Shown: positions 42,018 to 59,148, counted from the stretch's first letter. The stretch: 64,000 bases of DNA from Candidatus Krumholzibacteriota bacterium (GCA_016933255.1 JAFGBF010000029.1:41294-105293), one strand, 5' to 3'. Translations and numbers: made by a program. Notes: generated from the sequence alone by a model not told the origin.

Positions 42018-43790
42018 ATGGAAATGCTGCTTTCCGGAAACCAGGCCCTTGCCCGAGGAATTTATGAGTACGGAGGCGAGTTCGCGTCGGCATACCCCGG
42101 AACACCGAGCACCGAGATCCTTGAGACAATAGCCAGGTTTTTCAAGGACGACGTCTATGCCGAATGGGCGATCAACGAGAAGGTAGCCCTGGAAGTCGCG
42201 GTCGGAGCCAGTTACGGCGGAGCAAGATCCCTTGCCGCTATGAAGCACGTCGGGCTTAATGTTGCAGCTGATCCGTTTATGACTCTTTCGTATACGGGAG
42301 TCAATGCCGGCCTGATCATTGTCTCCGCGGACGACCCCAGCCTTCATTCCTCGCAGAACGAACAGGACAACCGTTTCTATGGCAAATTCGCCTCTATCCC
42401 GGTACTCGAACCATCTACAAGCCAGGAAGCGAAAGATTTTGTAAAACACGCCTTTGAGATAAGTGAAGAATTCGATACCCCGGTACTGATAAGGGTCACC
42501 ACCCGAATATGCCACTCGAAGGGGCTCGTGACGATCGGGGAGCGCAAAACGGTAGACAGGGGAGGGTTTGAACCGAATATCGAAAAGTATGTCATGGTAC
42601 CTGCCTACGCCACCAAGAGACACAAACTCGTAATCGAGCGCCTTGAGAAACTTAAAGATTATGCCGAAAAAAGCAAACTGAACCAGATAGAATGGAACGA
42701 TAAAAAGGTAGGGATAGTAACAGGCAGTGTCGCCTATCAGTACGCGAAAGAAGCGATGCCAGACGCAAGCATCCTGAAGCTGGGTATCGGATTCCCTCTT
42801 CCGATGAAAAAGATCAAGAGCTTCGCATCCGAAGTCGATCAGCTCTTCGTGGTCGAGGAACTCGAGGGATTTTATGAAGAGATGATCGCTGCAGAAGGGA
42901 TCGAGGTGGAAGGGAAGAAGTACTTTTCCAACTTTCTTGAACTCAATATAGACTGCGTCAGAGAGGGATTCGTTAATGCCGGGGTCCTTGACAGCTCCGT
43001 TCTGAAGACCCTCCCGAAAACTGAATCTGTCTTGCCCAGGCCGCCCGTACTCTGTTCCGGATGCCCGCACAGGGGCCTGATGGTATCTCTTAAAAAACTC
43101 GGCGTATATACGACAGGTGATATCGGCTGTTACACCCTCGGCGGCCTTCCTCCGCTGAGCCAGATACATACCTGTCTCTGCATGGGAGCATCGATAGGCC
43201 ACGCCTTCGGTATCGAAAAGGCTGGGAAGACCGCAAAAAAAGCTGTCGCGCTTTTAGGAGACAGCACATTCCTTCACTCAGGGATCACCGGTCTTGCAAG
43301 TGCCGTGTTCAACAAAAGCAGGATAACGGTCGTTATAGCTGATAACAAGATCACGGCGATGACTGGAGGCCAGGACAACCCGGCGACGTTGAAGACGCTT
43401 ATGGGGGAGAAGACAAAGCCGGTCGATCTGGTCAAGCTCTGCGAGTCTCTCGGAGTCGAACATGTAAGAACAATTGATCCTTACGATCTTGACGCGACCT
43501 ACTCTGTCCTCAAGGAAGAAGTGGAAAGAGAGGACGTCTCTGTGGTAATAACTACAAGGCCATGCATGCTCTTCCCCTCGAAGATCAGGGATATCCCATA
43601 TAGGGTAGTGACGGAAACGTGTATCGCCTGCGGCGCCTGCTTCAGGGTCGGATGCCCCTCTATCTCCGCCGCTCCGGAAACGAACGAGAAGGGAAAACAC
43701 AAATCGCTGATAGACACTAACACCTGCACCGGATGTACTATCTGCGCCCAGGTCTGTCCCACTGGCGCCATAGTCAAGGTCGAATCCTGA
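42018..43790 (+). CDS. iorA: Indolepyruvate ferredoxin oxidoreductase alpha subunit
   Basis: GNQALARGIYEYGGEFASAYPGTPSTEILETIA; LCSGCPHRGLM; GDIGCYTLGGLPPL; C-terminal CIACGACFRVGCP and CTGCTICAQVCPTGAI. Confidence 0.95.
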   Translation: MEMLLSGNQALARGIYEYGGEFASAYPGTPSTEILETIARFFKDDVYAEWAINEKVALEVAVGASYGGARSLAAMKHVGLNVAADPFMTLSYTGVNAGLIIVSADDPSLHSSQNEQDNRFYGKFASIPVLEPSTSQEAKDFVKHAFEISEEFDTPVLIRVTTRICHSKGLVTIGERKTVDRGGFEPNIEKYVMVPAYATKRHKLVIERLEKLKDYAEKSKLNQIEWNDKKVGIVTGSVAYQYAKEAMPDASILKLGIGFPLPMKKIKSFASEVDQLFVVEELEGFYEEMIAAEGIEVEGKKYFSNFLELNIDCVREGFVNAGVLDSSVLKTLPKTESVLPRPPVLCSGCPHRGLMVSLKKLGVYTTGDIGCYTLGGLPPLSQIHTCLCMGASIGHAFGIEKAGKTAKKAVALLGDSTFLHSGITGLASAVFNKSRITVVIADNKITAMTGGQDNPATLKTLMGEKTKPVDLVKLCESLGVEHVRTIDPYDLDATYSVLKEEVEREDVSVVITTRPCMLFPSKIRDIPYRVVTETCIACGACFRVGCPSISAAPETNEKGKHKSLIDTNTCTGCTICAQVCPTGAIVKVES

Positions 43791-43795
43791 TTGGA

Positions 43796-44398
43796 ATGGA
43801 AAGGAGCATGTCAGATATGAATAACGGTACTACTAACGTTCTGATCGTAGGTGTGGGTGGTCAGGGTGTCCTGCTCGCAAGCGAGATCCTGACGGAGGTC
43901 GCCAAAAATATGGGGCTGGATGCAAAAAAAAGCGAAGTGCATGGAATGTCTCAGCGCGGAGGGATCGTGACAAGCCATGTCAGGTTCGGGAAAAAGGTAT
44001 CTTCTCCGCTTATCCCCGCGGGTGAGGCCGATGCCATACTGGCGTTCGAGCTTGCCGAAGGACTCAGGTGGGTCGGGCAGCTTGGCAAAGATGGAGTCAT
44101 GATCGTAAACACTCAGGAGATCATCCCGGTGATCACTACGACTGGAAAATTTTCATACCCTGAAAATATCCAGGAAAAGATCAGTCAGCTGGCCGGCAGC
44201 CCCATCTTTATAGACGCTTTCGAAATAGCTACGAAACTCGGCAACTTCCGGCTCGTCAACACGATCCTCCTCGGAGTCCTTTCGAAGTCGCTCGCCCTCG
44301 ATGAAAAAAAATGGCTGGAGGTAATAGAGAGGATGGCTCCGAAAGGAACAGGGGAATTGAACAGGAAAGCATTTCTGGAAGGAAGAAAATACGAGTAG
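43796..44398 (+). CDS. iorB: Indolepyruvate ferredoxin oxidoreductase beta subunit
   Basis: NVLIVGVGGQGVLLASEILTEVAKNMGLDAKKSEVHGMSQRGGIVTSHVRFG. Confidence 0.94.
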   Translation: MERSMSDMNNGTTNVLIVGVGGQGVLLASEILTEVAKNMGLDAKKSEVHGMSQRGGIVTSHVRFGKKVSSPLIPAGEADAILAFELAEGLRWVGQLGKDGVMIVNTQEIIPVITTTGKFSYPENIQEKISQLAGSPIFIDAFEIATKLGNFRLVNTILLGVLSKSLALDEKKWLEVIERMAPKGTGELNRKAFLEGRKYE

Positions 44399-44476: not shown

Positions 44477-44953
44477 TCATTCTGCAGCTTCGAGAATAAT
44501 ATCTATCAGCCTCTCGACTCCGCCCCGCACCTCTTCGGAAAGTCCCTCATCGAGTTCCATGCTTTTCGGCTGGATCCCTACCATTATCGGATCTCCTTTC
44601 CATTCATTCTTGAGGAAAAGGATCATGTAATGGAGTGAAAGGCTGTGAGTACTGCTTGCCGACATCATCATCTTTTCAAGAGGAACGATCCTGACTTCTC
44701 CGGCTTCTCCGCCGAAATCTATGGCATCTATATAGACCACGCTTTCAAGGTTTCGCTTCTCCACCCATCCCCCGTAATTTTCGGGAACCTCCGCGCAATC
44801 GACCACCGGCATCTCTATCTTTCCCCGCAATCCTTCTACGACTTCGCATCCAGCGCCGTCATCCCCTTTTATTACGTTGCCTATACCAACTATTCCAAAA
44901 CGTTTTCCTTTTAATCTGGCATGCAGCTCGGTCCTTAGATCTTTTTCCGCCAT
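44477..44953 (-). CDS. Hydrogenase maturation endopeptidase (HycI/HyaD-type)
   Basis: GIVGIGNVIKGDDGAGCEVVEGL; VVYIDAIDFGGEAGEVRIV; SLSLHYMILFL. Start at Met 44953. Confidence 0.88.
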   Translation of the reverse strand: MAEKDLRTELHARLKGKRFGIVGIGNVIKGDDGAGCEVVEGLRGKIEMPVVDCAEVPENYGGWVEKRNLESVVYIDAIDFGGEAGEVRIVPLEKMMMSASSTHSLSLHYMILFLKNEWKGDPIMVGIQPKSMELDEGLSEEVRGGVERLIDIILEAAE

Positions 44954-45033
44954 GGTAGTGCCTCTCTCTGTTTCAGCTCCAGCAAACGCTGCGACGACAG
45001 CCATTGTAAGAGATATCCCGCCTGACTATCCAT

Positions 45034-45085: not shown

Positions 45086-45712
45086 TCAGCTCGTCCCGTA
45101 TTCATCCGACAGTATATATGCCGATCGGCAATTGGGGCAGAGGATCTTCATAAAGTTATCTCTTTCCAGATTCTTCCGTGGATTATTACCTGTATCGGCG
45201 CCGACCAGATTCATCTCAGCGTACTTGGCGACAACGAGAGAGGGGTTGGCAAAAGCAAGTTCCCCCAATTGATCATTGATCCATCTGAAATGATCGACAG
45301 CCGTGATAGCTCCGCCGCAGCCCTCGCAGAATACAAGTTCCTTGTCGTGCGTGTCTATCGCATCGGCTTTGTCAATGCACGATTTCTCAAAATCAGGATC
45401 GAGCTTGATCCCCTTGCCGGTGATACAGTATTCATAGCACTGGCTGCAGAAGATGCATTGCGCCCAGTTTCTCTCTATCCTGCGCACCAGCGTCCCTTTT
45501 TCTTCCCTGTACTCGTCAATGATCGTGATCGCGCCCGCAGGGCAGACCTGTCCGCACGCTCCGCACCCTACACAATCGTCCGGCACATAGGTGGGAGTCC
45601 CTCTGAAATGTTCGGGAACCGTCGCAGGCTCTTTAGGAAACTTTGAAGTGTACGGGCCCTTTACCAGAGCTGTAACAGCTTCCTTCAATTCTCTCAGTTT
45701 AGGCTTACGCAT
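45086..45712 (-). CDS. Hydrogenase ferredoxin subunit (HycF/NuoI/MbhN-like)
   Basis: CVGCGACGQVCPAGAI, CIFCSQCYEYC; additional C-terminal CEGCG and CPNC pairs. Confidence 0.85.
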   Translation of the reverse strand: MRKPKLRELKEAVTALVKGPYTSKFPKEPATVPEHFRGTPTYVPDDCVGCGACGQVCPAGAITIIDEYREEKGTLVRRIERNWAQCIFCSQCYEYCITGKGIKLDPDFEKSCIDKADAIDTHDKELVFCEGCGGAITAVDHFRWINDQLGELAFANPSLVVAKYAEMNLVGADTGNNPRKNLERDNFMKILCPNCRSAYILSDEYGTS

Positions 45713-45750
45713 TCTGAATTAAAACCCCCGCTGAATATCTTTTCACTCTT

Positions 45751-46092
45751 TCAGTTATCCTCAGAACCCTCTGAATCATCCTTGTATTTATCCATAACCG
45801 AGTCATCCCATAGCCTGATCCCCGAACGGTGCGCGGCTCTGGCGATAGCATGGGCTCCCGTGGGAGCTGTCATAAGAACAAACCAGATGCAAAGCAGGGC
45901 CTTGACGCCTATCGCATTGAACCCGGTATAAAAAACAACGCTCAACAGGATCAGGGCTGTTCCAAGAGTCACGCATTTTGTCGCGGCCTGAAGCCTGTTA
46001 TAGATATCCGGAAGACGGACAAGCCCGATACAACCGACAATATCGAATGTTATCCCGACCACGAGAAGGGTCATTCCGATAGTCTCATTCAT
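45751..46092 (-). CDS. mrpG: Monovalent cation/H+ antiporter subunit G (MrpG/MbhC-like)
   Basis: GIVGCIGLVRLPDIYNRLQAATKCVTLGTALILLSVVF-type pattern (FDIVGCIGLVRLPDIYNRLQAATK). Confidence 0.88.
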   Translation of the reverse strand: MNETIGMTLLVVGITFDIVGCIGLVRLPDIYNRLQAATKCVTLGTALILLSVVFYTGFNAIGVKALLCIWFVLMTAPTGAHAIARAAHRSGIRLWDDSVMDKYKDDSEGSEDN

Positions 46093-46339
46093 CAAAACCC
46101 CTCCCCTCGAGATATTTTGCAAGGGCCAGCGTCCCTATAAAGCTAAGAAGAGCCCATGACAATCCTATATTCATATATAGATCTTTTTTCGTGATTATCG
46201 AATAGATCGCGCAAAACCCGACAACCAGGGTCCCTACGATATCGATAGCCACGGTCCTGTCAGGAGCTGTAGGGCCTTTACCTACCCTGTACAGGCACAG
46301 GAAAAGGCAAAGAATCAAAAGCCCGATAAAGATACTCAC
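46085..46339 (-). CDS. mrpF: Monovalent cation/H+ antiporter subunit F (MrpF/MbhB-like)
   Basis: YRVGKGPTAPDRTVAIDIVGTLVVGFCAIYSI. Confidence 0.88.
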   Translation of the reverse strand: MSIFIGLLILCLFLCLYRVGKGPTAPDRTVAIDIVGTLVVGFCAIYSIITKKDLYMNIGLSWALLSFIGTLALAKYLEGRGFDE

Positions 46340-46821
46340 TCGAATACCCTTTCTAATAGATTTTCAAAATGGCCGACGATCAACTCTGTCTCTTTTTCCG
46401 GATCCTCAGATGAGATGTTGATCCAGTGTATATATAGATGATCACCGGTCATATCCACCGTCAGAGTCCCCGGTGTCAGGGTGATCGAATTAGCCAGAAA
46501 AGTCCTGGCCATGTCGGTTTTCAGCCTGGTCCTGACCTTGACGATCCCCGGACGGATAGGCATGTTGATATTAAGAACCCTGTAGGCGACATCGAAATTC
46601 GCCTTGATGACATACCAGATAAAAACGACCGTATACACGCACATCCAGAAAAAACGGATCGGATAAAATACCTTTACCGAACCGATCGGGAATATATCCC
46701 CAAGCAGAAGATCAGCCAGCAAAGCCACTATCACGCCTGCAAGGACTTCCTGCCATTGGAGCGACCAGGTCAAAGCCAGCCAGATGCCAAGCAGGATTAA
46801 AAAATGTAAAAATCGTTTCAT
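46336..46821 (-). CDS. mrpE: Monovalent cation/H+ antiporter subunit E (MrpE/MbhA-like)
   Basis: ARTFLANSITLTPGTLTVDMTGDHLYIHWINISSEDPE. Confidence 0.9.
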   Translation of the reverse strand: MKRFLHFLILLGIWLALTWSLQWQEVLAGVIVALLADLLLGDIFPIGSVKVFYPIRFFWMCVYTVVFIWYVIKANFDVAYRVLNINMPIRPGIVKVRTRLKTDMARTFLANSITLTPGTLTVDMTGDHLYIHWINISSEDPEKETELIVGHFENLLERVFE

Positions 46822-46834
46822 CTGATTCCCTTTT

Positions 46835-48337
46835 CTATACTCCGGCAATAAAACTCAAAAACGCCGCCTGATCAAGAAGCGTATCTTTTGCGGCCTCAAG
46901 CATCACACTGTCTATAAACGGATAGGCGATCCCGATAGCCAGGCAGAGGATCGCAAGGACAACAAGCGGAAGAGTCATCAGGAAAGGAGCTTCCTTGATC
47001 TTTTCGAATCTTTTGGGAAGTTCCCCGAAGAGCACGTTCATCTGAAGCCTGATGAAGGAGATCATCGTCATAAACGCCACAAAGATCGCCAGCACGCCGT
47101 AAATCGTATATCCGGCCTTGAGAAAAGCAAATATTATGATCAATTTGCTCCAGAATCCGTTGAACGGCGGCACACCGGAGATCGAGAGAGAGGCTATCGA
47201 ACATGTCGCGCTCGTAACAGGCATTTTCCTGACCAATCCGCCCATCTTCAGCTTGTCCCTTGTTCCGGTGCGGTATTCGAACGCTCCTGAACAGAGAAAG
47301 AGGCACGACTTGAAGACGGCATGGTTCACCATATGGAAAAGCCCGCCGAAGAGCGCCAGGGCAGCGAGAGCGGGGGAGACGTTCGGATTCAGGCCAAGCC
47401 CTATCCCGAGCGTCACATATCCCATCTGGCTGATCGAGTGATACGCAAGCATCCTCTTGAAATCGTGCTGTCCTACTGCGAGAAATACTCCGACCACCAT
47501 CGACAGAGCGCCGAGGAACATTATAATCGATGAGACCAGCGCGGAAGGTCCGAATATATGGAACATCAGCCTCGCGATCGAATAGACTCCGAGGGCCTTG
47601 ATCAAGACACCTGAAAGCATGGCGGAGATCGGGGCGGGCGCGCTCGGATGCGCATCGGGCAGCCAGGCATGGAACGGTACAGAAGAGGCCTTGAGCCCGA
47701 AGCCCGCGATAAAGAGAGCCATCACAAAGCCGACACCCTTGTTCATGCCTATCTTTCCCAGCTCTATCGCTACATCCGGCATATTCAGCGTACCTGTGAG
47801 CGAATAAAGAAAGGCGATTCCAAAAAGGATCAGGGTGCTTGCGACACCGCCGAGAATAAGATATTTAAACGATGCCTCGAGTTCGTTCTTCTCGCAGCCG
47901 AAGCCGACGAGCGCGTATGAGGCGATCGATGCGATCTCGAGGAATACATAAAGGTTGAAAAGGTCGCCAGTGATGACAACGCCGTTCATTCCGGCGATCA
48001 TAAGGAGAAAAAGAGTATAGTATTTCTCCTTGGCGGTATATGAGTCCATATACTTTGTCGAGTAGATCATAGCCAGGAGCCCGATCACATTGATGATCAC
48101 GAGAAGCATCGAGCTCAGGCCGTCCGAAATAAGCAGAATTCCGAAAGGAGGCGCCCAGCCCCCCACATGATAGGCGAATGGAGCTTCAAAAAGCATCTTG
48201 ACGGCCATTACCGAAAGGCTTGCCATCGCCAGGAAGGCAAGAAAGTCCGATATCTTCTGATTGATCTTTGCCGCCAGCAGATTAAAAAATGCCATGCCTA
48301 ATGGAATCGCCGTAAATAATGGGTAATATCCCTGCAT
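46835..48337 (-). CDS. mrpD: Proton-conducting antiporter subunit D (MrpD/MbhH/NuoN-like)
   Basis: GDLFNLYVFLEIASIASYALVGFG; PFHAWLPDAHPSAPAPISAMLSGVLIKALGVY; AYHSISQMGYVTLGIG. Confidence 0.93.
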   Translation of the reverse strand: MQGYYPLFTAIPLGMAFFNLLAAKINQKISDFLAFLAMASLSVMAVKMLFEAPFAYHVGGWAPPFGILLISDGLSSMLLVIINVIGLLAMIYSTKYMDSYTAKEKYYTLFLLMIAGMNGVVITGDLFNLYVFLEIASIASYALVGFGCEKNELEASFKYLILGGVASTLILFGIAFLYSLTGTLNMPDVAIELGKIGMNKGVGFVMALFIAGFGLKASSVPFHAWLPDAHPSAPAPISAMLSGVLIKALGVYSIARLMFHIFGPSALVSSIIMFLGALSMVVGVFLAVGQHDFKRMLAYHSISQMGYVTLGIGLGLNPNVSPALAALALFGGLFHMVNHAVFKSCLFLCSGAFEYRTGTRDKLKMGGLVRKMPVTSATCSIASLSISGVPPFNGFWSKLIIIFAFLKAGYTIYGVLAIFVAFMTMISFIRLQMNVLFGELPKRFEKIKEAPFLMTLPLVVLAILCLAIGIAYPFIDSVMLEAAKDTLLDQAAFLSFIAGV

Positions 48338-48358
48338 TTGAACTCCTGATTACTCCTT

Positions 48359-48709
48359 CTATCCCTTTAACCTGTTAATCTTCGACATATCGAAGGTCTT
48401 GTATTTCTCATATAGCCTGAGACAGATCGAAACCATCAGCGCAAGCACCCCAAGACCTATTACGATCGAAGTCAGAACCAGAGCCTGGGGCAGCGGATCG
48501 ACACTGTGTTCTACCAGTTCTTTCTGGTCCATCCCTTTCATAAGGATCGGAGCTATGCCTCCCTTGCGCCATCCGACCAGTATCAGGAAAAGATTGATCG
48601 AGTATTCAATTATCACGATCCCGATAATCTTTTTAATGATATTCTTCTTCGCGACCAGACAGTAGAGGCCCATAACGAAGAGAACCATCGTGAGAAAGTA
48701 TAGTGTCAT
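48359..48709 (-). CDS. mrpC: Monovalent cation/H+ antiporter subunit C (MrpC/MbhG/NuoK-like)
   Basis: IIGIVIIEYSINLFLILVGW; DPLPQALVLTSIVIGLGVLALMVSI. Confidence 0.92.
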   Translation of the reverse strand: MTLYFLTMVLFVMGLYCLVAKKNIIKKIIGIVIIEYSINLFLILVGWRKGGIAPILMKGMDQKELVEHSVDPLPQALVLTSIVIGLGVLALMVSICLRLYEKYKTFDMSKINRLKG

Positions 48710-49221
48710 TCTTCGTTACTCCCTTTCCTGTTTTCTTCGCTGCTTTCCCCGAGCGCCGAGACGAATTTTCCAAAGATCGAAAGCGCGATAAAGACCGCAA
48801 AGATCGAAGCCGTCACCTTGACCCCGATAGCTATATTCATAAGAGGGATCGTTCCGGCGCTGGCCAGATGAAAGATCTCTCCTTTTGCCATAAAATTAAG
48901 GAAAAAATATCCGCCGGTAAATCCTGCCAGCCCTATTATCAGAAAGACCAGGACGCCTGCAGTATCAAGTACTGACGCCACCTTGTCGCTCAGCTTCTTA
49001 AGCCCCAGGATCTTTCCGAACCCCAGTGTCAGGATGATATATCCGCATGCCAGGATCACTCCCCCGGCAAATCCTCCGCCGGGCGTCAAGTGCCCGTACA
49101 GAATGATATATACGCCAAAAACAAATATGATCCCTATGACGAACCTTACAATCGTTTTAACGATAGAGGTCATCCCGTGTTCACTGTCATGGATCATTTT
49201 TTTGATCTTATCATCCGCCAT
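48706..49221 (-). CDS. mrpB: Monovalent cation/H+ antiporter subunit B (MrpB/MbhF-like)
   Basis: FVFGVYIILYGHLTPGGGFAGGVILACGYIILTLGFG. Confidence 0.92.
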   Translation of the reverse strand: MADDKIKKMIHDSEHGMTSIVKTIVRFVIGIIFVFGVYIILYGHLTPGGGFAGGVILACGYIILTLGFGKILGLKKLSDKVASVLDTAGVLVFLIIGLAGFTGGYFFLNFMAKGEIFHLASAGTIPLMNIAIGVKVTASIFAVFIALSIFGKFVSALGESSEENRKGSNEE

Positions 49222-49231
49222 TGCTCACCTC

Positions 49232-49825
49232 TTAAAAACCCTCGAAATTTTTCTTTATATCTTCATCCTCGAGAATACCGACCTTTTCGACATCTTTTTC
49301 GCCGCGGCCCTTGCGCCCCTGCCGCCTGAGAATGACGAACGCTCCGACGATAGAGACAAAAAGAACAGTCGCTTCCCCGATAGTATCATACGCCCTGAAA
49401 TCGAGAAGCACTGCGGTTACAATATTTGTCGCCCCGGTCTCTCTTACTCCCGTCTCAAGATATCTGCTCGCGACTTTCATCACCGGTTCGCCGAAGACCG
49501 GCAGATCATGCACGGCGAAATACGAAAACAACAGGAAAAGGCCGAAAAATATAAGACTCGCGACGATCGGCAGATTGTCCCTGTGTTTTTCTATCGCTGT
49601 ATTATCAGTCGATATAGTCGCACGTATAAGGATCACCAGGATCAGGATCTCGACTACCACCTGCGTTATTGCGATATCCGGAGCTCCCAGCATAAGAAAT
49701 ATGATCCCGAGGCTGAAGCCCACGACTCCGACCGATATAACCGACGAAAGCAGGTTCTTCGTCTCGATCGCGATCACGGAACCGATGATCATAAAAACCG
49801 TCAATACAAGGAGATATGTCTCCAT
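49232..49825 (-). CDS. MbhD-MbhE-like subunit (MrpA C-terminal/MrpB N-terminal region)
   Basis: LGAPDIAITQVVVEILILVILIRA; RETGATNIVTAVLLDFRAYDTIGEATVLFVSIVGAFVILRR. Confidence 0.85.
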   Translation of the reverse strand: METYLLVLTVFMIIGSVIAIETKNLLSSVISVGVVGFSLGIIFLMLGAPDIAITQVVVEILILVILIRATISTDNTAIEKHRDNLPIVASLIFFGLFLLFSYFAVHDLPVFGEPVMKVASRYLETGVRETGATNIVTAVLLDFRAYDTIGEATVLFVSIVGAFVILRRQGRKGRGEKDVEKVGILEDEDIKKNFEGF

Positions 49826-49848
49826 CCTTCTGCCTCTCCCTTACCTCG

Positions 49849-51732
49849 TTACCATTTGAACATCAAAATAAACGCAAGCACTCCGAGCCCTATCACCGCC
49901 CATGACAGATATGTCGAAAGAATACCGTCATGCATCATCCTGAGGAACTGAACTACCTGGTCTCCGAGCCTTCCGAAAATATTAAAAATATCATAATCGC
50001 CTCTATCGCCGTCTCTTAGCCCTCCTGATAGAAGCGGGTTCAGATCATCAGTGACTGTCTTGTAAAAATGCGTCCCGGGAATCGCGATCTCTTCATCGTC
50101 CATGATGTTTCCGCCGACCCATGGATTCTCATCGAAACGCAGCTTCTTTTTGATCCCCGAGAAAGCATAGATCAGGAGCCCGAGGAGTATGCCGAGGATC
50201 ATCAGGCCGGTCGCCAGCGTCGGATTCCAGAATCCGCCGTTTTTAGCGATCACGACGCTGTACCCGTCTATCCCGACATTCGACCGTGAAAGGATCCCTA
50301 TGATCTTTTCAAGCGGATATCTCGCAAAAACACCGAAAACGACGCAGAGTATCGAAAGGAATATCATCGGAAGCTGCATCGCGAAACCGGCTTCTTTGAC
50401 CTTGTCAAGTTTCGCCGGCCTCCTTCCAAGAAATATCGAGTGAAGCACCTTTATAAAGGAAGCCAGCGTAAGGGCGCTGCCGAATATCGCGACGACGAGG
50501 AATATCATATAATATCCACCGTTCCCGTCGATCATACCCTGATAGACAAGCCACTTGGATACGAATCCGTTGAATGGCGGTACTCCAGAGATCGACAGGG
50601 CGGTTATGAGCATAGTGACGAATGTGACAGGCATCACCCTGGCAAGCCCCCCAAGTTCTCCGAGGTCCGTAGATCCCGCCTGCTTTTCAACGGCGCCTGC
50701 TCCAAGGAACAGTCCGCTTTTGTATATCGCGTGGTTTACCATATGGAAAAGGCCGCCTACTATCGCTATCGGAATACCGCTTCCCACGCCGAGCACCATA
50801 TAACCGACCTGGCTCACCGCATGGAAAGAGAGCAATTTTTTAAGGTCATGCTGTATCAGAGCCATAAGCACGGCAAAGAGCAAAGTCCCGGCGCCGACGA
50901 TCATCATCATTATCGAAAGGGGCGACCCCGCGGAGATATCGAATATTCTGAAGGTCAGGATCCCGAGGAGGTATATCCCAAGGAGTTTGTCGAGCGAGGC
51001 GGGAAGGAAAGCTATAGTCGATGCGGGAGTCGGCTTGGCCATCTCAGGTATCCACGAATGGAAAGGCATTCCGCCGGCCTTGGCGATAGCCCCCGCAAAG
51101 AGGCATATAAACGCTATGACCGTTACAGGAGCGGTAGTCTCGATCGGCATCACGGAAAGCCTCGAGATAGAGACCGTCCCGAACCTTACCCAGATGAGGA
51201 TGATACCAAGAAGCATCGAGGCGTCAGTAAAACCGAGAAGGGTAAAGGTCTTTGCGGCCGCCTTTTCATGCCCCTTTCCTCCCATGTTGACCAGGTAGAA
51301 AAGGATCGCCGTCAGCATCTCCCAGAAGATCAGCATAACCAGAAGATTATCCGCCAGTACGGCCCCGAAAGCCGCACCGATCGTCCAGAGAATAAACGAA
51401 TAGTAGATGCTGCCTCGGTCGCTGCCGCGAAGGTAGCCGAGCGAATACAGAGTTATAAGGACACCGAACAGGCTGACAAAGATGATTATAAATGAATTGA
51501 AAGGCGTGAGCTTCAGGGCGAAATCTATCGGAATCTGCCCCCCGAGATCGAAGAGCGCGATCCTGTAAGCGACCTCTCCCGTGCCGAAGAATAGACGGAT
51601 CGCCTTGAAAAAGATCCATATCGAGGCCGCGAGAGCGATAACACCTGCTGCCGCACTCCCCTTCCTGGGAATGAAGAGAGGTATTATTCCGACGACTCCT
51701 GCGAAAACGATAATCTGTAAAAGTTCATGCAT
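49849..51732 (-). CDS. Second proton-conducting subunit (NuoL/MrpA/HyfB-like)
   Basis: DNLLVMLIFWEMLTAILFYLVN; MPFHSWIPEMAKPTPASTIAFLPASLDKLLGIYLL; SFHAVSQVGYMVLGVGSG. Confidence 0.9.
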   Translation of the reverse strand: MHELLQIIVFAGVVGIIPLFIPRKGSAAAGVIALAASIWIFFKAIRLFFGTGEVAYRIALFDLGGQIPIDFALKLTPFNSFIIIFVSLFGVLITLYSLGYLRGSDRGSIYYSFILWTIGAAFGAVLADNLLVMLIFWEMLTAILFYLVNMGGKGHEKAAAKTFTLLGFTDASMLLGIILIWVRFGTVSISRLSVMPIETTAPVTVIAFICLFAGAIAKAGGMPFHSWIPEMAKPTPASTIAFLPASLDKLLGIYLLGILTFRIFDISAGSPLSIMMMIVGAGTLLFAVLMALIQHDLKKLLSFHAVSQVGYMVLGVGSGIPIAIVGGLFHMVNHAIYKSGLFLGAGAVEKQAGSTDLGELGGLARVMPVTFVTMLITALSISGVPPFNGFVSKWLVYQGMIDGNGGYYMIFLVVAIFGSALTLASFIKVLHSIFLGRRPAKLDKVKEAGFAMQLPMIFLSILCVVFGVFARYPLEKIIGILSRSNVGIDGYSVVIAKNGGFWNPTLATGLMILGILLGLLIYAFSGIKKKLRFDENPWVGGNIMDDEEIAIPGTHFYKTVTDDLNPLLSGGLRDGDRGDYDIFNIFGRLGDQVVQFLRMMHDGILSTYLSWAVIGLGVLAFILMFKW

Positions 51733-51766
51733 TTTGTTTTTCTCCGGTATCAGCCGGCCAGTAAAT

Positions 51767-52963
51767 CTACTTGCCTGTCATCATCTTTCTTATTTCTTCT
51801 GTCTTTTCCTGCGACATCCTTATAAGGTCGCCCTCGGACATTATCCATCTTTCCCCGGAATTCCTGTCGATCCTTCCCACACGCTCGGTGCAGGAATAAC
51901 ACGGGTCGACAGCCGCCGTGATCAGCCCCGCGTCGGCCACAGTATCTCCGACAACGCTGTATTCGTTGGTCAGGATATTATTGAAACTCGGAGCCCTTAT
52001 CTTATGCCTCATCGGCATATTTCCGCCGTTCGACCGGATATAGTGCAGGACCTCGCCGCGGGGAGCTTCATAAACCCCTATTCCTTCACCGGGTGGGACC
52101 TCTCCTATCTCGGTGCAGATATCGCCGGGGCCGAGCGCCTCGAGTTTGTCGAGGGCCTGCCTGATTATCTTTATAGACTCGAAGTTCTCGAGCTGCCTGA
52201 CGACCGCCTTGTCGTATACGTCGCCGTTTTCACATACTATGACATCGAAATCGATTTTCCCGTAAGCATCGATCGGATGATCCCTTCTCGCATCGATATT
52301 ATACCCGCCGGCCCTCGCCGTAGGCCCAAGCGCCCCGTAGAGCCTGCACATCTTCTTGTCGAGGATACCGACGCCTTCCGTGCGCGCATGGATCACCGGG
52401 TCGTCGACGATCGCCCCTGTGAGCATCTTGTTTTTTTCTACAAGATCATCCAGCATCTTCCTTATATTCGGTATCTCTTCTACGGGGATCTCCCTTCTGA
52501 CTCCGCCGATCCGCATCATCGCGTAGTGGTTCCTGTTTCCGGTGACCGCTTCGAGAATATCGAGCACCGGTTCCCTGTATTTCCAGGTCCACATAAAGAC
52601 CGTGTTATAACCGATGAAATGGCCAGCAAGCCCTGTCCAGAGCAGATGGCTGTGAAGCCTTTCCAGCTCTGCGACGATCGCCCGTATATACTGCGCCCTT
52701 TCAGGGACCTCTATCTGGAGAAGGTCCTCGACAGCTTTTACATACGCGTACGGATGGGAGCATGAACAGATTCCGCAGACCCTTTCTACGAGAAAGGGAA
52801 CCTGATCCCATGTCTTGTGTTCCGAAAGGAGCTCGATCCCGCGATGACTCCAGCCAATCGTCATATCTATATCGACCACCCGCTCGCCATCTACATGAAG
52901 CTCGAAGAATTCGGGCTCCTCAAGGATAGGATGGAAGGGGCCGATAGGGATCTTTTTTACCAT
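51767..52963 (-). CDS. [NiFe] hydrogenase large subunit, group 4 type
   Basis: Both metal-binding CxxC motifs present: RVCGICSCSHPYAY and DPCYSCTERVGR, with a C-terminal extension. Confidence 0.92.
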   Translation of the reverse strand: MVKKIPIGPFHPILEEPEFFELHVDGERVVDIDMTIGWSHRGIELLSEHKTWDQVPFLVERVCGICSCSHPYAYVKAVEDLLQIEVPERAQYIRAIVAELERLHSHLLWTGLAGHFIGYNTVFMWTWKYREPVLDILEAVTGNRNHYAMMRIGGVRREIPVEEIPNIRKMLDDLVEKNKMLTGAIVDDPVIHARTEGVGILDKKMCRLYGALGPTARAGGYNIDARRDHPIDAYGKIDFDVIVCENGDVYDKAVVRQLENFESIKIIRQALDKLEALGPGDICTEIGEVPPGEGIGVYEAPRGEVLHYIRSNGGNMPMRHKIRAPSFNNILTNEYSVVGDTVADAGLITAAVDPCYSCTERVGRIDRNSGERWIMSEGDLIRMSQEKTEEIRKMMTGK

Positions 52964-53009
52964 CTAATCTCACCTCGTTGTCCAAACGGCATACTCTGCC
53001 GGGAAATCC

Positions 53010-53531
53010 TTACGGGTTCTGGCCCTCTGGCGGCTTGCCGGTAACCTCGTTATATCTATCTATACCATCATTCTTAATACGCGACATCTCGTGGTCATCC
53101 TTGTTCTCTCTCTTTTGCGGATAAAAATCCTCCGGCCTGGTATCGGAACGAAGCACAGGCCTGAGATCCGGATGACCTTTGAATCTTACCTCGAACATCT
53201 CGAAGATCTCCCTCTCGATCCACTTGGCGCCGGGGATGACATTGGAGATCGAATCAAGCTCCGGGTAAGGTTTCTCGGCGTATGTCTTGATCGTGACAAA
53301 ATAATGTTCCTTGTCGTAGGGAAAGAACATCAGGACTTCGACCCCGCCTCGGTCGTCAATACCGACTCCCGTATCGAACCTGGCGTCAAGATCGTTGAAA
53401 AGAAAGGTCGCGAGATCAAGCCAGGACTCTTTTTCAGCATAGATATATACCCGCTTTTCAGAGGGCTGGTCTATCTTGACCCTGTCTCCGAACTTTTCCG
53501 CTATCCGCTTCTTTACTTCTTCTCTCTCCAT
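53010..53531 (-). CDS. NuoC/30-kDa-like hydrogenase subunit
   Basis: FPYDKEHYFVTIKTYAEKPYPELDSISNVIPGAKWIEREIFEMFEVRFKGHPDLRPVL. Confidence 0.9.
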   Translation of the reverse strand: MEREEVKKRIAEKFGDRVKIDQPSEKRVYIYAEKESWLDLATFLFNDLDARFDTGVGIDDRGGVEVLMFFPYDKEHYFVTIKTYAEKPYPELDSISNVIPGAKWIEREIFEMFEVRFKGHPDLRPVLRSDTRPEDFYPQKRENKDDHEMSRIKNDGIDRYNEVTGKPPEGQNP

Positions 53532-53571
53532 CTTCCTGTTTCCCTGATTCTTTCCCAGGCACACGGCCCGT

Positions 53572-53985
53572 CTATAATGTGTTCAGGACTTTTACGACCC
53601 CGGCGATGATCGTCTCCGGTTTAGGGGGACACCCCGGAACATAAGCATCGACCGGTATATATTTGTCGACAGGACCGATAATATTATATCCATCCCTGAA
53701 GATACCGCAATTACACCCGCACGCTCCGATGACTATCACCTTGACCGGCTTGGGAGCCTGTTCATAAAGCCTTTTCAGCCTCGGCAGGACATTTCGCGTA
53801 ACGGGACCGCTTATCAAGAGCACGTCCGCGTGTCTTATGCTGCCGACAAGCACTATTCCGAAACGTTCAACATCGAACCTTGGCGTTAGAGCGTCCAATA
53901 TCTCTATGTCGCAGTTATTGCAGGCACCGGTATTTACATGAAACACCCATGGTGATTTTTTTAGAGCTTTCAAAGCCAGTGACAT
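53572..53985 (-). CDS. [NiFe] hydrogenase small subunit, NuoB-like
   Basis: HVNTGACNNCDIEILDALTPRFDVERFGIVLVGSIRHADVLLISGPVTRN; GACGCNCGIF; YVPGCPPKPETI. Confidence 0.92.
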   Translation of the reverse strand: MSLALKALKKSPWVFHVNTGACNNCDIEILDALTPRFDVERFGIVLVGSIRHADVLLISGPVTRNVLPRLKRLYEQAPKPVKVIVIGACGCNCGIFRDGYNIIGPVDKYIPVDAYVPGCPPKPETIIAGVVKVLNTL

Positions 53986-54000
53986 ACTTTCCTCCGCGAC

Positions 54001-54927
54001 CTAGTAACCGAGCACTGCCAGGACCAAAGCGACTACAGAGAGAACAAGCATCGGTCCCCAGAAAAAACGCAGGGCCTGATCGATCCTGACCCTGGGATTA
54101 GTATTCTTTATAAGCACTATAATTACCACTATAGCTACATACTTGAGTATCGATGTAAGGATGCTCCACCCGGCGAACGAGACCCCTCCCCAGAAAAGGG
54201 TTATCATAAAGACCGGAAGCACAAAGAACATGATCGCCGTATTCAGCTTTATCACGGCGAGCGGGGCCCCCGAATATTCTATATGCGTGCCGCCCGCAAG
54301 CTCGGTCTCCGCCTCAGGTATATCAAATGGAATAAAGGTAAGCTTTGCCTGAACACACATTATCATAACGATAAACGCAATTATTCCCGACGCGCTTCCC
54401 AGCATGATCCCCGATGAAGCCTGCTCGGCCAGTATCCGCTCGAAAGAGAAGCTTCCCGCTTTATATACTGTAGTCAGCATAGAGATCACCAGAGGCAGTT
54501 CATAGGCAAAAAGAAGTTTCATCTCCCTGCTTGCGCCGAGGACAGCCAGAGGATTCCCGGAAGCGCTCGCTCCAAGGATCATCGCTATCGCCGGAATAGT
54601 CATTATATACAGCACGACGATCGAATCTCCGACGAACGAGACAGAGAAAAGATTCGCCAGCCAGATTATGGTGGAGGCGAGAGTGGCGGCCGCAAGACCT
54701 ATGACCGGCATCAGGAGAAACCCGGTCTTCTTCGAACCGGCCGGAACGATCACTTCCTTGCCGAGAAGTTTCATTGTATCGGCAAAAGGCTGGTACCAGG
54801 GAGGTCCGACCCTCCAATGGACCCTCGCGGTCACCTTTCTATCCACCCAGGTAGTCAAAAGCCCGACCACCCCGGTAAAAAGAAACCCCGGAAATATCAG
54901 ATAAAAGAACAGGTACTTTAAGTCCAT
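54001..54927 (-). CDS. NuoH/HycD/MbhM-like membrane subunit
   Basis: DRKVTARVHWRVGPPWYQPFADTMKLLGKE; FIPFDIPEAETELAGGTHIEYSGAPLAVIKL. Confidence 0.93.
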   Translation of the reverse strand: MDLKYLFFYLIFPGFLFTGVVGLLTTWVDRKVTARVHWRVGPPWYQPFADTMKLLGKEVIVPAGSKKTGFLLMPVIGLAAATLASTIIWLANLFSVSFVGDSIVVLYIMTIPAIAMILGASASGNPLAVLGASREMKLLFAYELPLVISMLTTVYKAGSFSFERILAEQASSGIMLGSASGIIAFIVMIMCVQAKLTFIPFDIPEAETELAGGTHIEYSGAPLAVIKLNTAIMFFVLPVFMITLFWGGVSFAGWSILTSILKYVAIVVIIVLIKNTNPRVRIDQALRFFWGPMLVLSVVALVLAVLGY

Positions 54928-54939
54928 AGGTCCTCTCCG

Positions 54940-55419
54940 CTAACGCGTCAACATCCATCTGGTGAAATAGCGTCCACCCTCGGTGACATTTCGATGTTTT
55001 TTCTCAAGTTCCGTAAGTTCTTCAAAAACAAGCGCTCCGGAAGTACAGGTAGATACACATCTCGGCTGTTTGTCTTCCTTGAGGCGGTCCTGACAGAGAT
55101 CGCATTTCGGAGAAATATGCCAGGTACTGTAAACAAACATCACGCCGAACGGACACGCCATTATACATGATTTGCACCCGATGCACAGCTGATTCATCCT
55201 TACGATCGTTCCGTCTTCTTCCTTTTTGATCGCGTCCTGGGGACACACTTCAAGACACAAAGGCGTGTCGCAGTGGCGGCAATGCAGGGGCATCAATGCA
55301 GCTTCTTCAACAGGACCATGCTTTAAAAGGCCCTGTTTTTCATGTCCCCCCGAACAGGCAGCCGCACAGGCTCTGCATCCGGTACACAAGTTCATGTTTA
55401 TATAGATTCTTTTTTCCAT
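54940..55419 (-). CDS. Four-cluster ferredoxin, HycB/CooF-like
   Basis: NLCTGCRACAAACSGGH; HCRHCDTPLCLEVCPQDAI; CIGCKSCIMACPFG; CDLCQDR..PRCVSTCTSGAL. Confidence 0.9.
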   Translation of the reverse strand: MEKRIYINMNLCTGCRACAAACSGGHEKQGLLKHGPVEEAALMPLHCRHCDTPLCLEVCPQDAIKKEEDGTIVRMNQLCIGCKSCIMACPFGVMFVYSTWHISPKCDLCQDRLKEDKQPRCVSTCTSGALVFEELTELEKKHRNVTEGGRYFTRWMLTR

Positions 55420-55421
55420 AA

Positions 55422-57209
55422 TCAGCTCTTCTCGCTCTGACGCTCAAGGTTGACAGGGACCGGCGCAAGCATCACACATTCTGTCTTCTCATCAAGACTC
55501 CACGGGAACAGTTTGCGGACCGAAGGGAAGTGAATCGATGCGGCGGCGGTATTGCCTGAGAGTTTTTTTGAAACCGTTGCCTTGAATATCTCTTCTCCGC
55601 CGCCAGATGAGACCTTGACCCTGTCACCGCCGGTCAATTCAAGGCTGGAAGCGATCTCCCGGGAGATAAAAAGCTGCGGCTCCGGACAGGTGACTCGAGA
55701 CCAGTGCAGATTTCTCGTCACCGATCCGTCAGCTGCGTGAACAGCTTCGCTCCACGGCATCAGCACGCACGGAGCCGAACCAAATCCTCTGACCGAGTTG
55801 CAATACTTAGTCCATTTTTCGGTAAGCCCTTCGCCTGATCCCGATCTGGCCGTTTTCCTCTCGACGCTGGCTTCACCAAGCTCTGCGCCCATCTCTTTTG
55901 CGAGCGCCCTGAGGAATTCCCCTTCCGAATATGCTCCGGCCGGAGGATCTATCACATCTTCACGCACGACATCTTCTTTGAACGAAGGGGATACGGTCCC
56001 TTTCTTTTCCATCAGGCAGGCAGCAGGAATCACAACGTTGGAACGGGCCGATGTCTGACCCCAGAAAAGCTGCGTCGCCACCGTGAATTTCTTTTCTCTG
56101 AGAGCTTTTTCAACAGGGCCTGCGGGGTATACCGAGAAGATGTCCAGCCCGAGGATCACAAGGGCATCGATCTCTTTAGTTTCGAGTTTTCCAATTACAG
56201 ATCCGCATCCCGCGCCGGCAAGGACCGAATAGATCCCCCAGGAATTCTGCTGCACGAACTGCGGTTCGAAGAGTTTATCGCCCGGACATATCATGGTGAG
56301 CGCTTCGGCAAAAAGCGAAAGGAGGCCTGAAAACGACAGCCTGCCGAAAATATTTGAAAGATACGTCTCTATCTTCGCCGCTCCGAGCATCGCTCCAGCG
56401 CAGTTTTCTATCAGTTTTTTCTCTATTCCGCCGAGCTTTTCGATATCTTCCCAGCTGATAGCGTCTATCAGTTTTTTCAGGGCCGGCGTAAGGGGGTTTC
56501 CGCTTTTTGAAGATGCTGATTTCAGAAGACCCGCCACTACGGCAGTCTCTCCTCCGGGAAGGCACGCAAGATGTCTCCCGGCAAACCAGGCCGTGTGATT
56601 AAGCTCTGGACTTATAACGATTATCTCATTTCCCCTGCCGGCATTTTTCCCGGCGAGCACGGTCTTTGCCGTACAGGGATGATCGGAAAATGAATCGCCT
56701 ATCATAAGATAGACGCTCTTTGTCCCCTCAGGTTTTTTAGCGGTCGGCGAAAGCGACGAAAGATCACAATCGAGATACGCGGAAAAGAGGGGAGTGTCAT
56801 CAGGCGCAAACAATTCTACATTGGAAGTCCCTATGACATCTTTGGCAAACTTGAGCGCAAGTGCAGCTTCCTCGTTTGTAAGATTCTCGCCGATAAGGAC
56901 CCCGATACTATCGGCGCCTGATTCCGACTTGATCGAAGCGAGATTCTTTGCGGTTTCCTTTACGGCTTCGTCAAAGCTGGTCCTTTTCCCGAGGACAAAC
57001 GAATAGTTCAGCCTTTTCGGGTGCGATAAAAGCTCGACCGCAGAATTGCCGCGGGCGCAGAGGCTGCCGCCGAACTTGGATCCTTCTCTTTCGTCCCAGT
57101 CTATCGACAGGATCGAATCCTTCGTGAAGGAAGGCGACCTTTTCCCTCCCTTGAAAACAAGGGGGCAGGCCAGCGAACAAAGCGAACAGTAGTTGTTTAT
57201 CTCACTCAT
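55422..57209 (-). CDS. Molybdopterin oxidoreductase-fold subunit (NuoG/FdhF-like), predicted to lack Mo-ligand Cys/Sec
   Basis: YCSLCSLACPLVF...GSLCARGNSAVELLSHPKRLNYSFV; TNEEAALALKFAKDVIGTSNVELFAPDDTPLFSAYL has no C/U at the usual site; C-terminal MopB binding domain (TCPEPQLFISREIASSLELTGGDRVKVSS). Confidence 0.8.
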   Translation of the reverse strand: MSEINNYCSLCSLACPLVFKGGKRSPSFTKDSILSIDWDEREGSKFGGSLCARGNSAVELLSHPKRLNYSFVLGKRTSFDEAVKETAKNLASIKSESGADSIGVLIGENLTNEEAALALKFAKDVIGTSNVELFAPDDTPLFSAYLDCDLSSLSPTAKKPEGTKSVYLMIGDSFSDHPCTAKTVLAGKNAGRGNEIIVISPELNHTAWFAGRHLACLPGGETAVVAGLLKSASSKSGNPLTPALKKLIDAISWEDIEKLGGIEKKLIENCAGAMLGAAKIETYLSNIFGRLSFSGLLSLFAEALTMICPGDKLFEPQFVQQNSWGIYSVLAGAGCGSVIGKLETKEIDALVILGLDIFSVYPAGPVEKALREKKFTVATQLFWGQTSARSNVVIPAACLMEKKGTVSPSFKEDVVREDVIDPPAGAYSEGEFLRALAKEMGAELGEASVERKTARSGSGEGLTEKWTKYCNSVRGFGSAPCVLMPWSEAVHAADGSVTRNLHWSRVTCPEPQLFISREIASSLELTGGDRVKVSSGGGEEIFKATVSKKLSGNTAAASIHFPSVRKLFPWSLDEKTECVMLAPVPVNLERQSEKS

Positions 57210-57265
57210 AGACTGTTTTCTTCCCGCGCTCCTCCCTTTCGGAGAGCGCCCAAACGACGATCATA

Positions 57266-58084
57266 CTAACCAAACACGTTCGGAACGTCCTTGATCTTGT
57301 CGTAACACATATCGGGGCCGTCGACGCACAGGTAATAATGCCCGACATTACAGCGGCCGCATTTCCCCATGCCGCAGGACATCTTCCTGTTCATTGAAAG
57401 ATAGATCTGCGGTGGAGTAAATCCCACTTCCAGCAGCTTCAAAGTGACAAACTTAAGCATGATCTCGGGTCCGCACGACAGAGCGTAAGATTCAGGGACG
57501 CTGACATCAAGATCATCCAGCAAAGTGGTCACCAGACCGACATGCCCGTCCCAGTCAGGGTGCGCAACATCGATCGTGGTCTTCAGCGAAATATTTGAAG
57601 CGAGACCTTCCCATTCCTTGTACTGTCTTCGGAAACTAAGCTCGGCCGGTTCCCTTGCGCCGAACTTGATCTCGATCTTTTTGTATTTTGAGGGATCGTT
57701 GAAGAGGGCATAGAGGAGAGAACGCATAGGCGCAAGTCCAACTCCGCCTCCTACTACAAGGACATCCTTTCCGGCAAGCTTTTCGAGAGGATACCCTTTC
57801 CCGAACGGTCCTCTCAGCCCGACAACAGCCCCCGGTTTCAGTTCATGCAGGGCATCGGTGACCTTGCCGGTCTTCAGGATGGAGATCTCCATCTTTTCTT
57901 CTATATTAGGATCGGAACTCGGAGTGAACGGAGCCTCTCCGACACCCGGAACGGTAAGCTGCATGAACTGGCCGGCCTTGAACTTGATCGGCTTTGCCGG
58001 TTTCAGGCAGAAGGTCTTGATCGTCGGGGTCTCCGAGATCACATCTTCCAAGATGGTATCTATGGGATAATACGGGTTTTTCAT
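57266..58084 (-). CDS. FAD/NAD(P)-binding oxidoreductase, sulfhydrogenase gamma subunit (HydG-like)
   Basis: FKAGQFMQLTVPGVGEAPFTPSS; LRGPFGKGYPLEKLAGKDVLVVGGGVGLAPMRSLLY; YALSCGPEIM; MSCGMGKCGRCNVGHYYLCVDGP. Confidence 0.92.
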   Translation of the reverse strand: MKNPYYPIDTILEDVISETPTIKTFCLKPAKPIKFKAGQFMQLTVPGVGEAPFTPSSDPNIEEKMEISILKTGKVTDALHELKPGAVVGLRGPFGKGYPLEKLAGKDVLVVGGGVGLAPMRSLLYALFNDPSKYKKIEIKFGAREPAELSFRRQYKEWEGLASNISLKTTIDVAHPDWDGHVGLVTTLLDDLDVSVPESYALSCGPEIMLKFVTLKLLEVGFTPPQIYLSMNRKMSCGMGKCGRCNVGHYYLCVDGPDMCYDKIKDVPNVFG

Positions 58085-58098
58085 ACCCTTTCGCTCCC

Positions 58099-59148
58099 TT
58101 ATCTGGTTGCTTTCGTTACTACCTTACTGAATACTTCCCGCATATCGATGCTCGCCGAACATGCGTCAATACATCTTCCGCAGCCGGTACAGAAGACCGC
58201 ATTATGGCTGAGGGGAAGATAATCATACTTGTGATAAAACCTGTGCTTTACCCTGTCAGAAAGCCGGGGGCGCGGAGTACCCATCCCTGCCATCCTCGAA
58301 TATCCGCTTACCTGGCAGGAATCCCAGGACATTATCCTTTTGTACTGTTCCCCATCTTTCTGGTCGAAAAGCAGGAAACAGTAACAGGTCGGGCAGATGT
58401 TCGTGCAGGCGCCGCACTCTACGCATCTCGAGGCTTCTTCGGTCCAGATCTCATCATTGAGCATTTTCCGAAGCGGTTCTGTCACCTCGGCGCTCTCAGG
58501 ATAACTTTTGTTGTTCGCCTTGAGCTGTGAAAGGACTTTCTTCCGGTTTTCATCTCTCGTCTTTTCAAGGCCTTCGCGGACTTCCGAAAAGAGACCTCCG
58601 TTCTCTTCGATAATCCCGGCGCCTCTTTCCGATCCTTCTTCTACCAGAAAACCGCTGGCAACCTTGGCGATCGCCAGATCATACCCTTTTTCCGGCCAGG
58701 GGTTCGAGCCGGTAAGGTTGCAAAAACAACTCTCCGAACACTCTGAACAGTCGGAAGCGATAACGAGCATCCTGTCCCGTCTGATCTTGTAGAACGGATC
58801 GATATAGTCGCCCTCCGCCTGTACGCTGTCGACAAGCTCCATCGCCTTCAGGTCGCATCCCTTTGCCCCGACTATGACATAACCGGGGAAGGAATCTTCC
58901 GGCTTCAACTCATCTTTTTCCTCAGAGGGATACTGCGCGACCTCGAAGCGAAGATGCTGGGCAAACCCTTTAAGGGTCTCGACCGCCCTGAAACCGTCAA
59001 AAACGGTTCCGTCGGGCAGCGGGAATGATTCCACCCTTCTCATATGGAGTTTTCCGGTATCTTCTTCTTTGACAGGCACAAAAAGCTCCCCCTCCGCGGA
59101 GAGCTTCTTCAAAAGCTTCTCAAAATCAGTCGAATCAATGAATCTCAT
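58099..59148 (-). CDS. 4Fe-4S dicluster protein, sulfhydrogenase beta subunit (HydB/AsrA-like)
   Basis: CVECGACTNICPTCYCFLLFDQ; RVKHRFYHKYDYLPLSHNAVFCTGCGRCIDACSASIDMREV. Confidence 0.9.
   Translation of the reverse strand: MRFIDSTDFEKLLKKLSAEGELFVPVKEEDTGKLHMRRVESFPLPDGTVFDGFRAVETLKGFAQHLRFEVAQYPSEEKDELKPEDSFPGYVIVGAKGCDLKAMELVDSVQAEGDYIDPFYKIRRDRMLVIASDCSECSESCFCNLTGSNPWPEKGYDLAIAKVASGFLVEEGSERGAGIIEENGGLFSEVREGLEKTRDENRKKVLSQLKANNKSYPESAEVTEPLRKMLNDEIWTEEASRCVECGACTNICPTCYCFLLFDQKDGEQYKRIMSWDSCQVSGYSRMAGMGTPRPRLSDRVKHRFYHKYDYLPLSHNAVFCTGCGRCIDACSASIDMREVFSKVVTKATR

Follow-up and report, generated by a model that had tools for sequence, protein, structure and literature searches.

A 4g-like, Mrp-linked [NiFe]-hydrogenase gene cluster with an optional FdhF-like subunit in Candidatus Krumholzibacteriota

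What might a bacterium do with a run of 17 genes that places a group 4 [NiFe]-hydrogenase, an Mrp-type antiporter, a sulfhydrogenase-like diaphorase and a relative of formate dehydrogenase (FDH) side by side? Such a run extends from position 59148 to position 45086 of a 64,000-nucleotide stretch of DNA (hereafter the window; GCA_016933255.1, JAFGBF010000029.1:41294-105293), which belongs to a metagenome-assembled genome (MAG) of Candidatus Krumholzibacteriota, 2.58 Mb in size and 91% complete. We consider it probable that the genes encode one membrane-bound, Mrp-linked group 4 [NiFe]-hydrogenase (4g-like, of the type that adds an oxidoreductase module to a membrane-bound hydrogenase, or MBH), which evolves H2 from ferredoxin and NAD(P)H and exports Na+ or H+. 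The gene content and order, the conservation of that order across phyla, the intact ligand sets and the altered FDH site are all seen directly in the genomes.

Gene content, order and conservation

The 17 open reading frames (ORFs) are consecutive, all lie on the minus strand, and are separated by intergenic gaps of -38 to +56 bp. Families were called by Pfam and NCBIfam profile matches, with PDB matches for selected subunits. The first two genes encode an Fe-S subunit resembling HydB and AsrA (58099-59148; 349 amino acids [aa]; NCBIfam ShyB, 1.3e-43) and a HydG/AsrB-like FAD/NAD(P) flavoprotein (57266-58084; 272 aa; NCBIfam PRK08345, cytochrome-c3 hydrogenase gamma, 2.6e-57), whose closest solved counterparts are sulfhydrogenase beta (PDB 9nez_B, 1e-36) and gamma (9nez_C, 6e-48). 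These are followed by the FdhF-like subunit with its FDH fold (55422-57209; 595 aa; Molybdopterin, 2e-11; Fdh-alpha, 6e-37) and by a HycB-like four-cluster ferredoxin subunit (54940-55419; 159 aa; Fer4_11, 2.6e-20). The hydrogenase core consists of a NuoH/MbhM-like membrane subunit (54001-54927; NADHdh, 1.7e-67), the NuoB-type small subunit with the proximal [4Fe-4S] cluster (53572-53985; Oxidored_q6, 4e-29), a NuoC-like subunit (53010-53564; Complex1_30kDa, 5e-20), and the NuoD-like large subunit (51767-52963), which matches both Complex1_49kDa and NiFeSe_Hases.

The pump genes come next. They encode a NuoL/MrpA-N-like antiporter subunit (49849-51732; Proton_antipo_M, 1.5e-48; PDB 6cfw_H, 6z16_A and 6u8y_X), a fusion of MbhD- and MbhE-like parts equivalent to the C-terminal part of MrpA (49232-49825; MbhD, 3e-16; MbhE, 1.6e-11), MrpB (48706-49221; MnhB, 2e-22), an MrpC/NuoK-like protein (48359-48709; Oxidored_q2, 1.7e-26), MrpD as the second antiporter-like subunit (46835-48337; Proton_antipo_M, 8e-64), MrpE (46336-46848; MNHE, 1.2e-41), MrpF (46085-46339; MrpF_PhaF, 1.3e-17), and MrpG (45751-46122; PhaG_MnhG_YufB, 8.8e-26). 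The last gene codes for a HycF/NuoI-like subunit with two [4Fe-4S] clusters (45086-45712; PRK12387, formate-hydrogenlyase Fe-S subunit, 1.7e-28). The TTG or GTG starts of MrpE, MrpG and NuoC were called mechanically and are probably too far upstream; for MrpE and MrpG, the true start probably lies 3′ of the TTG.

A preliminary description, generated by a model from the sequence of the window, had listed these 17 minus-strand genes with the same order, coordinates and minimal gaps, and the profile matches concur with its family assignment for each of them. It had also likened the individual modules to MBH/Mrp systems, formate hydrogenlyase and the sulfhydrogenase beta and gamma subunits, as the PDB and profile matches do, and had reported that the large subunit has its two CxxC motifs intact. 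Indeed, the Ni-Fe ligands C63, C66, C355 and C358 in these two motifs are present and are invariant among the 78-79 relatives covering the sites. The protein continues in a C-terminal extension beyond DPCYSCTER, and its nearest matches come from other Krumholzibacteriota MAGs (83-87% identity). The closest solved large subunits are those of Pyrococcus furiosus MBH (PDB 6cfw_L, 1e-89) and Escherichia coli formate hydrogenlyase.

Relatives likewise retain almost all of the Fe-S cysteines in HydB, HydG, HycB, NuoB and HycF. HydB carries two C-terminal [4Fe-4S] motifs and further conserved cysteines, with 15 of its 16 cysteines near-invariant. In HydG, the C-terminal Fe-S residues C237, C242, C245 and C253 are invariant, and the GGGxG motif is conserved among the alignment rows listed. 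NuoB C22, C25, C89 and C119 are also invariant, and HycB has 16 cysteines, the N-terminal cluster being missing in about one-fifth of relatives. The HycF-like subunit has an additional conserved C-terminal CxxC...CxxC at residues 129-195.

The preliminary description had called for a survey of related genomes for the same gene order. A single contig scan that used the large subunit as query, with phyla taken from record titles, recovered the order on 80 MAG contigs, which represent about 20 phyla: HydB, HydG, (FdhF-like), HycB, NuoH, NuoB, NuoC, NuoD, NuoL-like, MbhDE, MrpB, C, D, E, F, G and HycF, often followed by HycI. All 16 core genes are present in 36 of these 80 loci; in most of the incomplete loci the contig ends within the cluster, and in a few, particular genes gave no match. 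Because the same order recurs across phyla, chance can be ruled out as its source, and the conservation of both order and ligands among relatives indicates that they are under selection. Within a sample of 80 genomes from the phylum itself, a close large subunit is encoded by 17 of the 20 genomes that belong to the same family as the window, and by one genome of a different family in that order. A single additional genome, from the same class, gave a match at 45%, and the other 61 of the 80 genomes gave no large-subunit match. Separately, a divergent second NuoC/NuoD/HycF-type set lies directly upstream of the hydrogenase cluster in a Zixibacteria locus (L016), and a similar arrangement occurs on a Cloacimonadota contig (L067).

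Relationship to described hydrogenases

The preliminary description had remarked on the combination of these modules in one bacterial operon. This combination is not new for bacteria: the same composition has been published and is widespread in our survey. Specifically, an "enigmatic" group 4 [NiFe]-hydrogenase of Saganbacteria RX5A has Mrp-like subunits together with cooF, asrA, asrB and a molybdopterin oxidoreductase whose assignment as an FDH was not possible (Matheus Carnevali 2019, PMC6349859). Compared by its published description, each of these components is matched here, and the relatives reported for RX5A, in Zixibacteria and Omnitrophica, belong to phyla that are also among the relatives found by us. 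An MBH-like function was suggested in that report as a hypothesis only. A known subgroup of the same composition therefore exists, as the preliminary description had considered might be the case, but not one of known function.

Mrp-linked enzymes of Omnitrophota and Cloacimonadota have been classified as group 4g (PMC8542988), for which the HydDB entry gives the role as undetermined. The MAGs called 4g in PMC8542988 include that of Ca. Saelkia tenebricola (3300035698_749; L024), whose large subunit is about 61% identical to that of the window. Such clusters, exemplified by L024, share the order HydB-HydG-HycB-NuoHBCD-NuoL-MbhDE-MrpBCDEFG-HycF, but lack the FdhF-like gene between HydG and HycB and the transmembrane helix 5 (TM5) Glu of the NuoL-like subunit. 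The four Ni-Fe cysteine ligands and the occurrence of NuoB, NuoH and Mrp subunits within one operon place the present enzyme with the Mrp-linked group 4 (4g-like) hydrogenases. The NuoD tree with MBH, formate hydrogenlyase and complex I outgroups has very long reference branches, and its deep placement was left unused. In Atribacteria, transcription has been reported for a possibly related complex, in which a membrane-bound hydrogenase is accompanied by an adjoining oxidoreductase and by Mrp genes on its flanks (PMC6469976).

Several better-known families can be set aside. The MBH of P. furiosus (group 4d) shares the group 4 catalytic core, MbhD/E and Mrp-type subunits, but has a single antiporter-like subunit and neither a diaphorase nor an FdhF-like module, whereas the present cluster has two Proton_antipo_M proteins and HydB/HydG. 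Formate hydrogenlyase of E. coli surrounds a similar core with HycB, HycF and FdhF-type partners; however, it lacks an Mrp part and HydB/HydG, and its FdhF has a catalytic Sec, so that membership in groups 4a/4b is rejected on the altered site described below. The beta and gamma subunits of P. furiosus sulfhydrogenase (group 3b) are homologous to HydB/HydG, but the large subunit examined here matches Complex1_49kDa/NuoD and MBH, and thus is a membrane-linked group 4 protein. Complex I is rejected because the cluster has no NuoE/F and the Ni ligands are present. A hydrogenase-antiporter supercomplex of Atribacteria and Thermotogae, reportedly named "Hun" by Glass in 2021, may be similar to the present cluster.

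Thus, the 17-gene cluster is a further member of a described cluster type. What is new is that the FdhF-like subunit is optional and has an altered site, and that a TM5 Glu in the NuoL-like subunit follows a distinct pattern.

The FdhF-like and pump subunits

Nineteen loci, from Krumholzibacteriota-type genomes, Zixibacteria, Saganbacteria, Planctomycetota, Latescibacterota, Calditrichota and one unclassified genome, have the FdhF-like gene between HydG and HycB. In 45 other loci it is absent, and HydG and HycB are just 2-270 bp apart. The subunit is therefore optional in this cluster type, its presence and absence corresponding to two state changes on the large-subunit tree. An AlphaFold model of the protein (pLDDT 89, pTM 0.90) has FDHs as its best structural matches, ahead of NuoG of complex I, and the [4Fe-4S] motif CxxCxxxC...C (C8, C11, C15, C51) is kept among members, with Zixibacteria deviating at C15. 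However, the residue aligned with the catalytic Cys/Sec metal ligand of three solved FDHs, at position 138, is Asp in 16 of 16 aligned members, and the adjoining catalytic His is lost (Thr139 in the window). FdhD was not found in the 91% complete MAG. Given the Asp at the ligand position and this negative result, it is very unlikely that the protein is a formate dehydrogenase; the subunit that the preliminary description had called NuoG/FdhF-like is better regarded as an altered, dispensable FDH relative than as a functional FDH module. The simplest reading is an electron relay or adaptor. A bolder idea is that Asp138 binds a Mo/W-bis-pterin, as in respiratory nitrate reductase, and that the protein is either an oxidoreductase of a kind not yet recognised, which supplies electrons to an H2-evolving pump, or a relay with a metal centre. 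In this scheme the FdhF-like protein goes together with a second pump subunit that has its full set of residues, the TM5 Glu included, and the ion stoichiometry is changed. We judge this to be distinctly improbable.

Genes for molybdenum cofactor (Moco) biosynthesis are present in the genome, but are uninformative on this matter because a tungsten enzyme of the aldehyde:ferredoxin oxidoreductase type encoded by the same genome also needs Moco. The MobA model scored above its cut-off in only 1 of 14 control genomes. Elsewhere in this genome, NuoE and NuoF are encoded beside a 1228-aa protein combining 2Fe-2S, GltD-like pyridine nucleotide, 4Fe-4S and molybdopterin domains (L098:4137-10181; G000:C19). 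This protein also seems to lack the FDH Cys/Sec in the matching stretch, and would represent a second altered FDH-like protein. In addition, two genes near Moco genes combine aldehyde:ferredoxin oxidoreductase with NuoE/NuoF and NuoG-N-like domains (L093:13253-18001; G000:C13), an unusual tungsten enzyme fusion.

A TM5 Glu is required in complex I and in Mrp antiporters. The NuoL-like subunit of the window has both this residue (Glu138) and the TM7 Lys218, and MrpD has the TM5 Glu134 and Lys216. The lysines of the antiporter subunits and the acidic and basic network of NuoH (Glu/Arg/Lys) are retained in relatives, and MrpD keeps its TM5 Glu throughout the clusters scored. The NuoL-like subunit varies: Glu is found at TM5 in 16 of 17 scorable FdhF-positive clusters (window included) and Gly in all 41 FdhF-negative clusters. 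The single exception, which also has Gly, is a Saganbacteria locus other than RX5A (L049), whose FdhF-like ORF is shorter (474 aa). Since about two state changes on the tree are all that underlie this correlation, it is a lead provided by sequence comparison rather than a functional test. A third antiporter-type subunit is encoded between NuoD and the NuoL-like subunit in seven loci from Aerophobota and a few Omnitrophota (L027, L031, L061, L066, L074, L075 and L083).

Proposed function and competing explanations

A single physical complex is inferred, as are the electron donors, the direction of the reaction and the transported ion. The overall proposal is supported by the subunit families, the invariant Ni ligands, the kept Fe-S cysteines, the intact transmembrane Lys and Glu residues, and the order conserved in about 20 phyla. 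Reduced ferredoxin would deliver electrons at HycF/HycB. NAD(P)H would pass a hydride to the FAD of HydG, from which electrons would move through the HydB clusters to HycB, with the [4Fe-4S] cluster of the FdhF-like protein inserted into this path in the present variant. That protein would act as a structural and electron-relay adaptor and would not oxidize formate. Both electron streams would then reach NuoB and the NiFe site, where protons would be reduced to H2, and the redox energy would drive NuoH, the NuoL-like subunit, MrpD and Mrp B/C/E/F/G to move Na+ or H+ outward. Uphill transfer from NAD(P)H to H2 would be driven by ferredoxin oxidation or by ion back-flow.

The genomic setting is in keeping with this proposal. 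The genome carries an Rnf complex, an Hdr-linked group 3c-type hydrogenase with hyp maturation genes, and two V/A-type ATPase operons (L095 and L096; G000:C14 and C10) with different K subunits, one of which has a Na+-type PGTQ...VETY motif. No further subunit of the antiporter type was found in the 91% complete MAG. Within the window, an IorA/IorB-like (indolepyruvate-type) ketoacid:ferredoxin oxidoreductase pair (42018-44398, plus strand) converges on the hydrogenase cluster and is a plausible source of reduced ferredoxin for the hydrogenase. Rnf and the ATPase motif are compatible with a predicted Na+ bioenergetics, and the setting as a whole suits a fermentative organism that generates reduced ferredoxin and NADH and sheds electrons as H2. 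On the minus strand, 3′ of HycF, lies the region's top-scoring terminator-like site, a candidate hairpin of 10 pairs with a T tract that matches the consensus (45061-45038). It is followed by a gene for a HycI-family [NiFe]-hydrogenase maturation endopeptidase (44477-45004; PF01750, 1.9e-12), which is found 3′ of HycF in many relatives too.

Several points weigh against the proposed function. Our literature search found no biochemistry for this cluster type, and H2 formation from NAD(P)H is thermodynamically poor unless H2 is low. The placing of all 17 products in one putative complex is based on gene order, and the choice of Na+ would depend on the Mrp part and on a motif in an ATPase encoded elsewhere in the genome. 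Furthermore, HydB/HydG have a single recognisable flavin site, so that classical flavin-based confurcation is not evident, and it is probably within the Fe-S chain that the two streams of electrons come together. Thus, the general idea of the preliminary description, a redox-driven complex with a diaphorase that couples H2 formation to ion translocation, is supported by the order in about 20 phyla and by the cofactor ligands, with NAD(P)H, ferredoxin or both as possible donors and Na+ or H+ as the possible ion.

One possibility is that the enzyme runs mainly in reverse or balances ferredoxin against NAD(P)+, such that NAD(P)+ receives electrons from H2 or ferredoxin through HydB/HydG, the ion gradient sets the direction, and H2 evolution is secondary. 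The resemblance of HydB/HydG to the reversible sulfhydrogenase beta and gamma subunits points this way, and Rnf and the Hdr-linked hydrogenase make redox balancing plausible. However, Rnf already supplies ferredoxin:NAD+ exchange, and the structurally solved group 4 relatives physiologically evolve H2; on balance, we regard this explanation as unlikely. Alternatively, the operon could encode separate complexes, namely an Mrp-linked ferredoxin hydrogenase and a soluble HydB/HydG(/FdhF-like) oxidoreductase that works independently of it, such as one resembling a sulfur or sulfite reductase. HydB/HydG-related modules do occur with other partners, and those found here resemble both AsrA/AsrB and sulfhydrogenase. 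This explanation appears quite unlikely to us, because in about 20 phyla HydB-HydG sit immediately beside HycB and the core genes of the hydrogenase on every contig that extends over them, and because none of the matches in the cluster is to AsrC, the sirohaem catalytic subunit.

A true formate hydrogenlyase, in which the FdhF-like subunit oxidizes formate and feeds the hydrogenase, would agree with the FDH-like fold, the Fdh-alpha match, the retained [4Fe-4S] motif and the Moco biosynthesis genes. We reject this explanation as extremely improbable, given the altered metal-ligand site and the failure to find FdhD in the 91% complete MAG; in addition, most relatives have no such gene between HydG and HycB.

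If the proposed H2-evolving, ion-exporting hydrogenase is correct, then this cluster type, found in about 20 mostly uncultured anaerobic phyla, may be their chief route from fermentation electrons to H2 and an ion gradient. Its natural variants, with or without the FdhF-like subunit and with or without the pump Glu, offer a ready comparison for the study of coupling stoichiometry in the complex I/Mrp superfamily.

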